Positions 35,804-41,925 of a DNA stretch of 64,000 nt are shown here, in pieces. This DNA is from Aridibaculum aurantiacum. GTDB lineage: Bacteria > Bacteroidota > Bacteroidia > Chitinophagales > Chitinophagaceae. Location of the stretch: assembly GCF_017355875.1 (NCBI RefSeq), contig NZ_JAFEWC010000001.1, forward strand, positions 682,001-746,000. Direction: 5' to 3'. A program made the translations under genes and the position numbers. The notes beneath the pieces were generated by a model that did not search any database, had not been told where the DNA came from, and saw only the letters and a list, made by a program, of their open reading frames with translations. How positions within the stretch are numbered: position 1 is the stretch's first letter; each line of letters starts with the position of its first letter.

Positions 35804-35822
35804 CTGCAGTTCTTTTCACATC

Positions 35823-35933
35823 ACTTATCAAGAAAGGCAGAGGGTTATGGCCCTGTGAAGCCTTGGCAACCCTTACATCTCACGCAGTTGTAAGAAGGTG
35901 CCAACTCCATCCCGCAAAGCGGGACAGATAAGT
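35823..35933 (+). ncRNA. SAM-I (S-box) riboswitch aptamer
   Basis: P1 arms ACTTATC (35823-35829) and GATAAGT (35927-35933) are complementary. The conserved core appears in order: AGGCAGAGGG, TGGCCCTGTGAAGCC, GGCAACC (35865-35871), a CTTAC/GTAAG P3 hairpin, AAGGTGCCAACTCC (35895-35908), and a CCCGC/GCGGG P4-type hairpin. This is the standard SAM-I layout. Binding of SAM should stabilise P1 and turn off the downstream gene. The 8-base TAAGTCAG (35929-35936) at the end of P1 can instead pair with CTGACTTA (35990-35997), which sits in the terminator hairpin. Confidence 0.93.
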
Positions 35934-35981
35934 CAGCGTAAAGTTTGAAACATACTGAACCAATAGGTTCAAAAACATATC

Positions 35982-36014
35982 AAGCTCACCTGACTTACCG
36001 GGTGAGCTTTTTTT
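35982..36014 (+). terminator. Riboswitch-controlled intrinsic terminator
   Basis: The stem AAGCTCACC/GGTGAGCTT is followed by a run of seven T. Its loop region (35990-35997) is complementary to the 3' strand of the riboswitch P1, so formation of this hairpin and of the antiterminator are mutually exclusive. A small GAACC/GGTTC hairpin (35957-35970) lies between. Confidence 0.9.
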
Positions 36015-36150: not shown

Positions 36151-37338
36151 ATGAGCAACGCAACACAACTCATCCACAGCATCCCGGTAGATCCACTTAC
36201 AGGTTCCATTTCAGTTCCTATCTACCAGACATCTACGTTTGTACAAGAAGCACCGGGCGTTAATAAAGGCTTTGATTATGCACGTACCAACAACCCGACA
36301 AGAGCCACGCTCGAAACCATCATTGCGCAGCTTGAAGGTGGTACTACAGGTATTGCATTTGGAAGTGGTTTGGCTGCCATAGACTCAGTTCTCAAGTTGC
36401 TAAAAGCTGGCGACGAAATAGTAGCGGTGGATGATATTTACGGCGGTGCGTTTCGCCTCTTCACGCACATCTACGAGAAGTTTGGAATAACAGTGAAATA
36501 TGTTGATACAACGGATGTAGAAAATGTATTCAACGCTGTTTCTGAAAAGACAAAGTTGATATGGATAGAAACACCAACAAATCCTACGCTAAAAGTATCT
36601 GACATTGCAGCTATTGCAAAAGTGGCTAAAGCCAATCGGTGTTTACTTTGCGTGGATAATACTTTTGCTTCACCCGCCTTACAAAAGCCTCTTGCGCTGG
36701 GAGCTGATATTGTAGTGCACAGTGCTACAAAATATCTTGGTGGCCACAGCGATCTCATTGCTGGCTTAGTAGTAACCAAAGAACAGGAGCTAGGCGACAA
36801 GGTCAAGTTCATTCAAAATGCAAGTGGTGCCATTCTTGCTCCATTCGACAGCTGGCTGGTAATACGGGGTATAGAAACATTGCACCTGCGTGTAAAGCAA
36901 CATTGTGCTAACGCACAGGTTGTCGCTGAATTTTTACAAGATCATCCGTTGGTTGATAAAGTGTTTTATCCTGGTCTTCCATCGCATCCAAATCACGAGG
37001 TAGCAAAGAAGCAATCAACAGGCTATGGTGGTATTGTTTCTTTCTCTCTGAAGATTGATACAGAAGAAGCGGCTACCAGGTTCATCACATCTACGCATTA
37101 CTTCAAGTTGGCAGAAAGCCTTGGTGGCGTAAAAAGCTTGTTGTGCCACCCGGCTACAATGACTCACAAATCTATTCCTGCAGATAAAAGAAGAGCTGCC
37201 GGTGTTGCTGATAGTTTGATAAGGCTTTCCGTTGGGTTGGAAGAATCTGCAGACCTTGTAAATGATCTTTCACAAGCATTTGAAGTGCTGCAAAAGCAGC
37301 CAGCAGCAAGCGTTTCAGCAGTTTCTGCAACTACCTAG
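36151..37338 (+). CDS. PLP-dependent cystathionine gamma-synthase/beta-lyase family enzyme
   Basis: A 395-residue Cys/Met metabolism PLP enzyme. YQTSTFVQE, ARTNNPTRATLE, LEGGTTGIAFGSGLAAI, and the PLP-lysine motif SATKYLGGHSD (about residues 190-200) are diagnostic. The end of the protein keeps IRLSVGLEESADL. It converts O-acetylhomoserine plus cysteine to cystathionine, or cleaves cystathionine to homocysteine; sequence alone does not separate MetB from MetC. SAM-I riboswitch control fits a methionine biosynthesis role. The next PLP paralogue at 37564 has its own promoter and leader. Confidence 0.92.
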   Translation: MSNATQLIHSIPVDPLTGSISVPIYQTSTFVQEAPGVNKGFDYARTNNPTRATLETIIAQLEGGTTGIAFGSGLAAIDSVLKLLKAGDEIVAVDDIYGGAFRLFTHIYEKFGITVKYVDTTDVENVFNAVSEKTKLIWIETPTNPTLKVSDIAAIAKVAKANRCLLCVDNTFASPALQKPLALGADIVVHSATKYLGGHSDLIAGLVVTKEQELGDKVKFIQNASGAILAPFDSWLVIRGIETLHLRVKQHCANAQVVAEFLQDHPLVDKVFYPGLPSHPNHEVAKKQSTGYGGIVSFSLKIDTEEAATRFITSTHYFKLAESLGGVKSLLCHPATMTHKSIPADKRRAAGVADSLIRLSVGLEESADLVNDLSQAFEVLQKQPAASVSAVSATT

Positions 37339-37344
37339 CAAAAA

Positions 37345-37352
37345 TATTTTTG
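37345..37352 (+). promoter_or_regulatory. -7 promoter element TATTTTTG for the cysteine-leader/metY transcript
   Basis: A perfect TAnnTTTG match immediately after the stop of the preceding gene. A weak TTTC in the -33 position is 19 bp upstream. It would start a transcript with about 205 nt of leader before metY, including the poly-Cys ORF. Confidence 0.5.
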
Positions 37353-37387
37353 AAATTCTCAACACTTAGGTTCTAACTTAGATTTCA

Positions 37388-37471
37388 ATGATCAGCACAA
37401 CAAGTCATATCTCTTCATTCAGCAAAACAGTTTCTTTTGTTTGCTGTTGTTGTTGCTGTTGTTGTCTCTAA
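37388..37471 (+). CDS. Short leader ORF with eight consecutive cysteine codons (putative Cys attenuator)
   Basis: The ORF reads MISTTSHISSFSKTVSFV, then eight Cys codons (TGC or TGT, 37442-37465), then Leu and TAA, 27 residues in all. It lies between a -7 box (37345-37352) and the start of the O-acetylhomoserine sulfhydrylase gene (37564). Cysteine is normally a rare residue, so eight in a row upstream of a sulfur-assimilation gene strongly suggests a ribosome-stalling sensor of Cys-tRNA. Poly-Cys leader ORFs acting as cysteine attenuators are known from mycobacteria. No obvious Shine-Dalgarno precedes the ATG, as is normal for this phylum. No strong terminator was seen between the leader and metY; a weak GTTGA/TCAAC hairpin (37487-37502) is present. 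Confidence 0.75.
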   Translation: MISTTSHISSFSKTVSFVCCCCCCCCL

Positions 37472-37551
37472 CATCCTCGCTTGCCCGTTGAGTCTTTTCA
37501 ACCCTTAGGTGCCTTTACAAATTTTATAAACCACATTTTCTTATTCTTTAA

Positions 37552-38883
<1,332 letters not shown>

Positions 38884-39138: not shown

Positions 39139-39591
39139 ATGCCAACAATCAATTTTTCAGTAGAAGGCGAAAGCATAAACGCCACTAAGCTTGAAGCGAA
39201 AGCACGACAATTCAAATTCATTGTAGATGAACCACCAGCATTGGGTGGCAAAGACGAAGGAGCTAATCCTGTGGAGTATTTATTGGGCAGTTATGCAGGT
39301 TGCTTGAATGTGGTGTTTCACCTGGTTGCAAAGGAGGAAGGCATAACCATTAACTCGCTTGGCATAAAAGTGAATGGTGATATAGATCCTGCTCGTTTAT
39401 TTGGCTCATCCACGTTCAATCGTGCCGGCTTTCAAAGCATCAACGTGGAGTTTGACATCGACAGCGATGCAGATGAAGCTACCATCAACCAGCTGATCAG
39501 TAAAGTTAAAAGCAGGTGCCCGATCAATGATAACCTGAGTAATGTAACGCAGCTGAATTATTCAGTTGTAAGCAGCGCAGTGCCTGCATAA
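39139..39591 (+). CDS. OsmC/Ohr-family protein
   Basis: A 150-residue protein with both OsmC cysteines: one in YLLGSYAGCLNVVFHLV (Cys about 55) and one in SRCPINDNLSN near residue 131. OsmC-family proteins are thiol-dependent peroxidases or related enzymes. It is embedded in the methionine block: stop and metX start overlap (TAATG at 39589-39593), so a role linked to sulfur metabolism or redox protection of this pathway is inferred from position only. The upstream 255 bp contains two hairpins and no clear promoter. Confidence 0.85.
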   Translation: MPTINFSVEGESINATKLEAKARQFKFIVDEPPALGGKDEGANPVEYLLGSYAGCLNVVFHLVAKEEGITINSLGIKVNGDIDPARLFGSSTFNRAGFQSINVEFDIDSDADEATINQLISKVKSRCPINDNLSNVTQLNYSVVSSAVPA

Positions 39592-40679
39592 TGCCTATGT
39601 CGTCAACACAAATTTTCAAATACACGAAGCCTTTCCAATTGGAGTCGGGAAGACAACTTCCCGGCTTTCATCTTGCCTATACATGCCATGGCCAACTCAA
39701 TGCTGCAAAGGATAACGTGGTGTGGGTGTTTCATGCTCTTACTGCTAATAGTGATCCGGTAGAGTGGTGGTATGGTTTGGTAGGAGAGGGTAAATTGTTT
39801 GATCCTGCGCAGTACTTCATTGTATGTGTCAATATGCCCGGCAGTTGTTATGGCAGCATCTCTCCTTTAGATAACGCAGAAGATGGCGCGCCGTTCTACC
39901 ACTCGTTCCCGCTGTTTACTACACGCGATATGGTGCGAGCTTATGCATTGCTGAAAGAGCATCTTGGAATTGAAAAGATATTGGTTGGGCTTGGTGGATC
40001 TATGGGTGGACAGCAACTGCTGGAGTGGGCAGTAGAGGATCCGCAACTGTTTGATCATATTGTTCCTATTGCTACCAATGCACAACATTCAGCATGGGGA
40101 AGAGCTTTTAATGCATCGCAGAGGTGGTGCATAGAGAGCGATCCTTCATGGCAAGAAAAGCATGAAGCCGCAGGATTGGAAGGAATGAAAGTAGCCCGGT
40201 CTGTTGCACTGATATCTTATCGCAATTACAGTACGTATGCTTTAGCACAACAAGGTGCTACATCCGATACGGCTTCGCTGCCTGTAGATGAGCAGGTGTA
40301 CAAACCTGAAACATACCAACGGTACCAGGGCGAGAAACTGGCTGCTCGCTTCAATGCCTTTAGCTATTACTTTTTGAGTAAAACAATGGATGCGCATGAT
40401 ATTGGCCGCGACCGCCGATCAGTAGAAGAAGCATTGACGTCTATTACTGCTAAAGCATTGGTGATCGGCATTTCGTCCGATATCTTGTTTCCTGTATTGG
40501 AGCAGGAATATATAGCCAAACACATACGCAACGGCCAGTTGGCTGTTATAGATTCTGATTATGGACATGATGGCTTCCTGCTGGAGTTTGAGAAGATCGC
40601 CAATCATATAAGAGTATTCTTAAGCCATAGCGCCGCAACAACGATTATCAATACCAACAAACTTGTACAACATGGCTAA
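39591..40679 (+). CDS. metX: Homoserine O-acetyltransferase
   Basis: A 362-residue alpha/beta hydrolase-fold acyltransferase. The nucleophile elbow is GLGGSMGGQQLLEW (about residues 132-145); the acid is in SSDILFPVLEQ and the His in DYGHDGFLLEF. NMPGSCYGSISP matches MetX. It activates homoserine for metY or the cystathionine synthase. Start ATG 39591 overlaps the OsmC stop; ATG 39597 is an alternative. The last 8 bp overlap the start of homoserine dehydrogenase. Confidence 0.94.
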   Translation: MPMSSTQIFKYTKPFQLESGRQLPGFHLAYTCHGQLNAAKDNVVWVFHALTANSDPVEWWYGLVGEGKLFDPAQYFIVCVNMPGSCYGSISPLDNAEDGAPFYHSFPLFTTRDMVRAYALLKEHLGIEKILVGLGGSMGGQQLLEWAVEDPQLFDHIVPIATNAQHSAWGRAFNASQRWCIESDPSWQEKHEAAGLEGMKVARSVALISYRNYSTYALAQQGATSDTASLPVDEQVYKPETYQRYQGEKLAARFNAFSYYFLSKTMDAHDIGRDRRSVEEALTSITAKALVIGISSDILFPVLEQEYIAKHIRNGQLAVIDSDYGHDGFLLEFEKIANHIRVFLSHSAATTIINTNKLVQHG

Positions 40680-41925
40680 TCAAAAAGCATTAACAATAGG
40701 ATTATTTGGCTTTGGTGTAGTAGGAGAAGGATTATATAAAGTACTTCACCAGACACCATCGCTACAGGCTACCATCAAGAAGGTTTGCATACGCGATGCC
40801 ACAAAAAAACGCAATGCACCAGCAGAACTATTTACTACCAATAAAGATGAATTGCTGAATGATGAAGCCATCAATGTTATAGTAGAAGTAATAGATGACT
40901 CTGTGGCTGCTTACGAAATTGTAACCACTGCTGCAAAAAACGGTAAGGCTGTAGTGAGTGCCAGTAAGAAAATGCTTGCAGATAATCTTCCTGCTATACT
41001 TCAATTGCAGAAAGATTACAAGGTTCCATTTTTATATGAAGCTGCTGCTTGCGCCAGTATACCAGTAATTCGCAACCTGGAAGAGTATTACGACAACGAC
41101 CTGTTGCATTCTATTCGTGCTATTGTAAATGGCTCTACCAATTTCATCCTGACAAAGATGTTTAAAGAGCAGCTTGATTTTTTTGAAGCGCTTACACTTG
41201 CACAACAGTTAGGTTTTGCAGAAAGTAATCCCGCACTCGATGTGAATGGACATGATGCTGTAAACAAATGGACGCTGTTGCTCAATCATGCTTATGGCAT
41301 TGTAGAGCAACCGGCTAACCTGTTATTCTCAGGCATACAAAACATAAAGCTGAACGATGCGCAGTATGCAAGAAAAAATCATTTAGATATAAAACTTGTA
41401 GCGCAGGCTAAGAAGTTACAGAGTGGACAGGTTGCTGCTTTTGTGTTGCCACAATTTGTACAGCCAGGCGATCATTTAGCTTTTGTAAAAAATGAATATA
41501 ATGGCGTAGTGATAGAAAGTGGTTTTGCTGATAAGCAATTCTTCTATGGCAAGGGTGCAGGCAGTTTCCCTACAGCTTCCGCAGTATTAAGCGATATAAG
41601 CGCCTTGCGCTATGACTATACCTACGAGTATAAGAAACTGAACCATCCTACCAGGAATGAATTGGCCACTGGTTATTACCTGCGCGTGTACGTAAGTTTT
41701 GAAGATTGGAAACATGTTCCTCGCGATGCATTTGAAACGATAGAAGAATGGCACAAGCAGGGAGATAGGATATATTTAGTTGGTGTGATAGAAGTGTCCA
41801 AACTGCAGCAGTCAACATGGTGGAAGGAAAATGCAACATCACTTATACTTACAGCAGATGGAGTGATAGAGCATGCAGCCAGTATCAATAAAGAAAATAG
41901 TGCAGCTATACTAACAGCAGTATAA
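40672..41925 (+). CDS. hom: Homoserine dehydrogenase
   Basis: From ATG 40672 (MANQKALTIG) the product has 417 residues; a TTG at 40663 adds three residues. The NAD(P)-binding motif is GLFGFGVVGEGLYKVL, the substrate region VNGSTNFILTKM and FAESNPALDVNGHDAVNKW. A C-terminal region (about 335-415) could be an ACT-like regulatory domain. It makes homoserine from aspartate semialdehyde, supplying metX. It overlaps metX by 8 bp and is followed by a terminator. Confidence 0.93.
   Translation: MANQKALTIGLFGFGVVGEGLYKVLHQTPSLQATIKKVCIRDATKKRNAPAELFTTNKDELLNDEAINVIVEVIDDSVAAYEIVTTAAKNGKAVVSASKKMLADNLPAILQLQKDYKVPFLYEAAACASIPVIRNLEEYYDNDLLHSIRAIVNGSTNFILTKMFKEQLDFFEALTLAQQLGFAESNPALDVNGHDAVNKWTLLLNHAYGIVEQPANLLFSGIQNIKLNDAQYARKNHLDIKLVAQAKKLQSGQVAAFVLPQFVQPGDHLAFVKNEYNGVVIESGFADKQFFYGKGAGSFPTASAVLSDISALRYDYTYEYKKLNHPTRNELATGYYLRVYVSFEDWKHVPRDAFETIEEWHKQGDRIYLVGVIEVSKLQQSTWWKENATSLILTADGVIEHAASINKENSAAILTAV

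Follow-up and report, generated by a model that had tools for sequence, protein, structure and literature searches.

A cysteine-rich leader ORF predicted in front of metY in Aridibaculum aurantiacum and its relatives

Is a short ORF with an unbroken run of cysteine codons, lying in front of metY, a leader peptide through which the ribosome senses cysteine, or merely a repeat that happens to stay open? The question is raised by the window analysed here, a stretch of 64,000 nucleotides from Aridibaculum aurantiacum (Chitinophagaceae; NZ_JAFEWC010000001.1, positions 682,001 to 746,000).

The leader ORF, its operon and its promoter

The ORF (37388..37471, forward strand; peptide MISTTSHISSFSKTVSFVCCCCCCCCL*) has 27 codons between the ATG at 37388 and the TAA at 37469-37471, and its codons 19-26 (TGC TGT TGT TGT TGC TGT TGT TGT; 37442..37465) specify eight cysteines without a break, followed only by CTC and the stop. 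The original prediction had described this ORF with its eight cysteine codons, and re-reading of the letters returned the same coordinates and codons; the observation is right and, as will be seen from the relatives, it was also understated. A search of Rfam with the leader region of the window gave no family at gathering score, and only two chance-level matches on the other strand.

Upstream of the leader lies a gene for a cystathionine gamma-lyase/gamma-synthase-like PLP enzyme (36151..37338, +; PF01053, 507 bits), the exact activity of which is not settled, since its best NCBIfam model, NF005810, scores 521 bits under a cut-off of 594. Downstream, 92 nt from the leader stop to the ATG, follows metY for O-acetylhomoserine sulfhydrylase (37564..38883, +), as had been proposed, now with 675 bits for TIGR01326 above a cut-off of 495. 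The same strand continues with an OsmC-like protein gene (39139..39591; PF02566, 71 bits), a metX-like homoserine acyltransferase gene (39591..40679; TIGR01392, 336 bits, under its cut-off of 500) and a homoserine dehydrogenase gene (40663..41925; PF00742, and NF004976 above its cut-off). The OsmC-like gene stands between metY and metX in the window and is also part of the operon at the relative's locus L177. There, a SAM riboswitch and a cysteine leader (677-1443) lie upstream of the osmC-like gene, which is followed by metY and metX; the leader thus tracks the front of the operon.

A promoter-like box is observed before the leader. A -7 box had been placed at 37345-37352, and the letters there, TATTTTTG, do fit TAnnTTTG; as a -7 box, however, it is probably misplaced, for the relatives favour 37374-37381. 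Judged by sequence comparison, the likelier promoter uses the TTTG of TATTTTTG (37349..37352, +) as a putative -33 box, an inference from a spacing like that in the relatives' leader promoters, together with TAACTTAG (37374..37381, +) as the putative -7 box, which stands 6 nt from the leader ATG and recurs unchanged in L085. Among the 82 leaders defined below, 68 have a TAnnTT(T/A/G) box ending 5-25 nt before an in-frame ATG (19.9 from shuffles), and 43 also have TTTG at the -33 position (1.8 expected). The message of the window leader is possibly near-leaderless, as in the mycobacterial case, its start site being predicted and unmapped. An attenuator is expected to have a short ORF of pathway codons between promoter and operon, and this is met here with a promoter that is predicted, not mapped.

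Conservation of the cysteine codons and of a hairpin over the stop

For the comparison, 80 metY loci of titled genome records were combined with metY orthologues, and we extracted the upstream regions and deduplicated them, whereby the removal of identical 120-nt upstreams and of loci without a start brought 143 metY loci to 122. Of these regions, 93 were picked by metY alone and 29 (L125 and above) by R1, a model of cysteine codons plus the ATGCCGNAAGGCAT hairpin, and the latter were excluded from every count over the 93. A leader was scored as an ORF from ATG to stop within 300 nt, with cysteines counted per 8 codons; the set of 82 leaders holds those with at least three cysteines in 8 codons and includes 28 of the 29 R1-picked regions.

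At least three cysteines were reached in 54 of the 93 metY-picked regions, at least four in 46 and at least five in 37, as against 2.25%, 0.12% and 0%, respectively, in dinucleotide shuffles of all 122 regions. In 5650 other 300-nt windows of the same loci, taken as a control, 163 reached at least three cysteines and 18 at least four (0.32%). The original prediction had looked to conservation of the cysteine run and its frame in relatives for support, and on this point the outcome is clearly positive (46 of 93). In these 46 leaders, the distance from stop to metY has a median of 97 nt (80-149), and the length, counted from the first ATG, is 17-66 residues, with 27 in the window.

We observe conservation of the cysteine codons at the operon fronts, not of the leader as a whole: the cysteine block stays near the leader stop, often as CCICCMP, and the N-terminal parts are very different between lineages. 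In many relatives, codons for Ile, Met, Arg or Ala interrupt the block and its length varies, with the frame kept. Its codons are mixed over the 82 leaders (TGT 312 vs TGC 130), and the fourth position before MP splits 21 to 22 between TGT and TGC. A repeat kept with its frame lost would have spoken against a leader, and this is not the pattern of the relatives; since frame and cysteine block are kept while TGT and TGC mix, repeat slippage is refuted. That the run be conserved as codons and not as a DNA repeat, which is likewise expected of an attenuator, is therefore met.

Conservation is not universal. Fewer than three cysteines in 8 codons were counted in 39 of the 93 regions, in several of which a SAM riboswitch immediately precedes metY; the same-genus relative (G003, locus L017) has only three, and a plain search for CCC found 34 of 80 loci. 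At least one leader, that of L060, starts with GTG and was missed by the ATG-based count. A phylum-wide draw gave a metY-like match at E 1e-120 in 189 of 247 genomes, and among 67 of its loci at least three cysteines were present in 11 of the 19 that belong to the window's class or to a closer group and in 2 of the 48 from beyond the class. The latter share is no more than chance would yield (2.9%), and the leader accordingly seems restricted to the window's class. As far as sequences alone can place it, the window ORF is one of a family of cysteine-rich leaders that precede metY operons in both Chitinophagaceae and Cytophagales; genome G012 of the former family and the Terrimonas ferruginea record L109 have an identical leader, the label Cytophagales-type being taken from Chryseolinea and other titled records and inferred for the remaining loci.

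In many Chitinophagaceae, the cysteine block runs into TGTATGCC-GNRA-GGCATA, and an ATGCC-GNRA-GGCAT hairpin is observed over the stop codon. Exact copies number 47, with a GNRA loop in 42 and, in 33, the stop as the codon after Met-Pro inside the loop; 25 of the 93 metY-picked regions contain one. This hairpin is absent from the window, from L018, L027, L028 and L030, and from 18 Cytophagales-type leaders. Of the 294 genomes examined from the family, 51 had a match to model R1; among the 53 matches listed, sequence was taken for 50, and 45 of these lie upstream of metY (37 of 38 at E <=1e-4). The matches without metY (L159, L167, L172, L173 and L174) are all weak, and L150, with a 97-residue piece of metY, was counted as having it. 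No double changes were found among the 27 sequences of alignment A2, and covariation is weak evidence here because the stem barely varies. Changes on both sides of a pair, which we read as compensating, appear in the raw sequence of L153 (C-G to G-C) and of L085 and L154 (C-G to U-A); L085 is gapped at the changed pair in A2, L153 and L154 are not part of that alignment, and L052, a near copy of L051, was excluded from both A1 and A2.

These data allow us to weigh three readings in which no cysteine sensing is involved. The window run could be a TGT/TGC microsatellite that arose by chance and happens to leave a frame open, for it is a (TGY)n tract, and the genome has 15 distinct sites of at least five consecutive TGY triplets, the leader being one. 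Yet 12 of the 14 other sites have no ATG upstream of the run in the cysteine frame, and the remaining two each lie opposite a longer open frame (one being a 15-residue ORF that faces 172 codons, the other a frame of 147 residues that faces 227 codons). Together with the interrupted cysteine-rich ORFs at the same place in relatives, and their rarity in shuffles and genomic windows, this renders the microsatellite scarcely credible: it is refuted for the family, the window copy itself being without in vivo translation data. A short functional peptide that binds metals or thiols, and regulates nothing, seems equally far-fetched. Cysteine-rich peptides can bind metals, but what is kept is mainly the block near the stop and the position at the operon front, while the N-terminal parts diverge; a Pfam search with the window peptide gave no match, and no support for metal binding was found. 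Somewhat less improbable, though still unlikely, is that the hairpin, as an RNA or protein-binding element, is what is conserved, and that the cysteine codons are a by-product of its pairing. Its near invariance and GNRA loop, its retention in L116 and L122 with only three cysteines in 8 codons, and an excess over permutations in the pairing between early ORF and cysteine region (p=0.00075, uncorrected) would agree with this; the cysteine runs of the window, L027, L030 and the 18 Cytophagales-type leaders nevertheless occur without the hairpin, and the wobble base is free to vary at the upstream cysteine positions.

As a chance cysteine run for control we used an 11-triplet TGY run of the same genome (G000:C1:2507632-2507664), which lies opposite the poly-Gln tail of a frame that is presumably peptidyl-prolyl-isomerase-like.

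Two arrangements of leader and SAM riboswitch

A SAM riboswitch near the leader had been part of the original prediction, and it is indeed observed, before the previous gene: a SAM-I aptamer (RF00162; 86.5 bits, gathering 44.4) occupies 35822..35934 (+), upstream of the gene that precedes the leader, and an intrinsic terminator, AGCTCACC..GGTGAGCT plus a T run, can be read from the letters at about 35983..36014 (+). Rfam was applied at gathering score to the window and to four sets of 20 loci, not to all loci, and the link between riboswitch and leader takes two forms there.

In the Chitinophagaceae, and likewise in the window, a separate promoter is predicted close to the leader, which lies downstream of riboswitch and terminator. 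The first leader ATG is 131-466 nt past the aptamer in 19 Chitinophagaceae-type loci and more than 1380 nt past it in L048, L057, L068, L101 and L102, a distance similar to that of the window; of the 24 leader loci of this type that were scanned, 23 were flagged with a terminator behind the aptamer. In 18 Cytophagales-type loci, 3-11 nt separate the end of the SAM-I aptamer from the leader ATG, and consequently the first ORF of the riboswitch is the cysteine leader, not metY; neither this abutting aptamer nor the GNRA hairpin had been part of the original prediction. L107 (2607-2732), L111, L118 and L176 are among these abutting loci (L093 and L176 share the same leader), a terminator after the abutting aptamer was flagged in only one of 17 scanned (L115), and in L188 and L189 the gap is 79 and 130 nt instead. 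An ORF that begins 9 nt past the aptamer is kept in L178, L180, L181 and L187 with merely 0-2 cysteines in 8 codons, which counts against a pure cysteine sensor.

We would give roughly even chances to the following interpretation: in Cytophagales the SAM-I riboswitch directly controls translation of the cysteine leader, forming a two-input gate (SAM and Cys-tRNA) for metY, and in Chitinophagaceae the two inputs are split between a riboswitch with terminator and a near-leaderless unit of promoter and leader. A conserved spacer stretch (TAGC...RGTGAC-RGG..., then GGTTA or similar) was also noticed in L108, L111, L112, L118, L119, L124 and L177, all with the appearance of a structured RNA; the L118 copy had no Rfam family at E <=1.

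A proposed cysteine-sensing mechanism

The cysteine ORF recurs with varied DNA and the same frame, so it probably turns the operon on when cysteine is short. We hold with good, though not full, confidence that it encodes a leader peptide sensed by the ribosome, through which the metY-osmC-metX-hom operon undergoes attenuation dependent on Cys-tRNA; that the ORF is translated, that the ribosome pauses, and in which direction and at which level (transcription or translation) control is exerted are all inferences. With ample Cys-tRNA, the ribosome would cross the cysteine codons and come off immediately ahead of a spacer that is structured or C-rich, with metY expression remaining low. With scarce Cys-tRNA, it would pause at the cysteine run, alter the folding of the spacer or its exposure to Rho, and metY expression would rise. 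Control of the operon by cysteine is likely but inferred without expression or starvation data, and membership in the attenuator class remains incomplete because the switch itself has not been shown.

The supply of cysteine may give such control a physiological sense. In the genome of A. aurantiacum, a CBS-like gene is present in full length (482 bits, under the cut-off of 510), and CysE gives only a partial, low-scoring match (89 bits, cut-off 211); among 38 genomes, 37 have a CBS-like match at E 1e-100, and none has a CysE or CBS match above NCBI's cut-offs. A CysE-like match above 150 bits, a line set after the scores were known, was present in 6 of 20 genomes with the leader vs 10 of 18 without, a difference that is not significant (Fisher p=0.19). 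Cysteine may accordingly be made from the homocysteine that MetY produces, via the CBS-like and the neighbouring gamma-lyase-like enzyme, and this would make cysteine a sensible second signal beside SAM.

The attenuators of trp and his read out a codon run by the position of the ribosome. The metY leaders share this codon-run logic, but no uniform pair of terminator and antiterminator was found in them. That no strong terminator is visible between leader and metY, a caveat voiced at the outset, holds true for the window, where a hairpin is predicted in the spacer at 37478..37511 (+; outer CGCTTG/TAGGTG, inner GTTGAG/TTCAAC) with no U tract directly after it. Its inner part keeps a probability of 0.92-0.96 in every simulated ribosome state, and the outer helix disappears only in states in which the ribosome footprint itself covers it. 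A window antiterminator, CUC(U)AAC:GUUGAG, was rejected at a probability of 0.00 in every ribosome state. Terminator-like hairpins with a U tract occur in 20 of 82 spacers (3.2 expected), clearly so in L024, L027, L030 and L149, and about three quarters of spacers have none by the score used. In constrained folding of a stalled vs a terminating ribosome, 20 of 81 leaders shift, at the stop, towards the spacer hairpins and 10 shift in the opposite direction; mutually exclusive terminator and antiterminator structures were not seen in the window, nor a consistent switch across the 81 leaders, by this method.

Permutation tests of ten pairings covered 77 of the 82 loci; they were uncorrected for multiplicity or for the relatedness of loci, and some empty tail or middle segments added a constant to the means. 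Besides the early-ORF excess given above, the ORF middle with the cysteine region gave p=0.001, the spacer with the tail p=0.028 and the spacer with the early ORF p=0.064; the spacer showed no excess with the cysteine region (p=0.54) or the middle (p=0.55) in these 77 loci. The polycysteine sORFs of mycobacteria act by pairing of the leader RNA that sequesters the ribosome site of the gene behind it. In the metY leaders, by contrast, no excess pairing with the metY start was detected (spacer p 0.94, cysteine region 0.22, tail 0.88, early ORF 0.76; 77 loci, limited power), so sequestration of the start site is unsupported, within that limited power. Between the very 5' end of the transcript and the segment that follows the hairpin, pairing exceeded that of permuted partners at p=0.009 (51 of 54 loci), and a wider version of the test gave p=0.064. 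In 12 of the 18 Cytophagales-type leaders (1.3 expected), the stop is followed by RCAACA/CAACAR, which can pair with the last cysteine codons, as against 5 of 79 other leaders (3.7 expected), and a consensus helix of 8 such sequences has two pairs with changes on both sides.

A serious rival to an RNA switch retains the same cysteine leader and lets it act via Rho-dependent termination or mRNA decay; we take it to be a real but lesser possibility. The spacers are C-rich and G-poor, with C/G at 2.11 vs 1.61 in leader-less regions (significance not computed), and most are without a terminator by the score used; Rho has moreover been proposed for actinobacterial cysteine leaders in the part of PMC1262725 available to us. 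Against Rho stand the clear intrinsic terminators of L024, L027, L030 and L149 and the small size of the C/G difference.

Cysteine leaders are known from other phyla. Polycysteine leaderless sORF attenuators have been described in mycobacteria (Canestrari 2020, as cited in PMC9031893 and PMC13236596); in the available excerpts, they resemble the metY leaders in that a short ORF with contiguous cysteines heads a sulfur-metabolism operon, and an ATG near the transcript start may be common to both, for the metY leaders by promoter prediction only. The metY leaders differ in phylum, in having metY as target, in their link to SAM riboswitches and, in many cases, in the GNRA hairpin over the stop. 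Candidate cysteine leaders upstream of cys/cbs operons of Actinobacteria (PMC1262725, seen in part) likewise have cysteine runs near the leader stop, and the mycobacterial ones lack a conserved terminator hairpin; phylum and targets are different, and no riboswitch partner is described in that part of the source, unlike for the metY leaders. The uORFC-8-2 motif upstream of cysS in Rhodobacterales, for which ribosome-mediated attenuation was proposed (PMC8632094), is also a uORF with cysteine codons, but, according to the accessible text, it has two tandem cysteine codons, an intrinsic terminator in all copies, cysS as its target and an alphaproteobacterial host. For Bacteroides thetaiotaomicron, leader-like sORFs are mentioned in the accessible part of PMC7366714. 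No earlier report of a cysteine leader in Bacteroidota was found in the open-licence literature, most subscription papers being outside the scope of the search, and as far as searched a recurrent family of cysteine leaders with a riboswitch-adjacent form is new to the phylum.

If the proposal of a ribosome-sensed cysteine leader is true, cysteine-sensing attenuation extends to Bacteroidota, a metabolite riboswitch gating a translation sensor exists as a natural composite, and it becomes explicable how sulfide assimilation is matched to both SAM and cysteine in bacteria that seemingly make cysteine from homocysteine. All of this is directly testable, given that clear examples of the leader are present in Terrimonas ferruginea (L109) and Chryseolinea serpens (L111).
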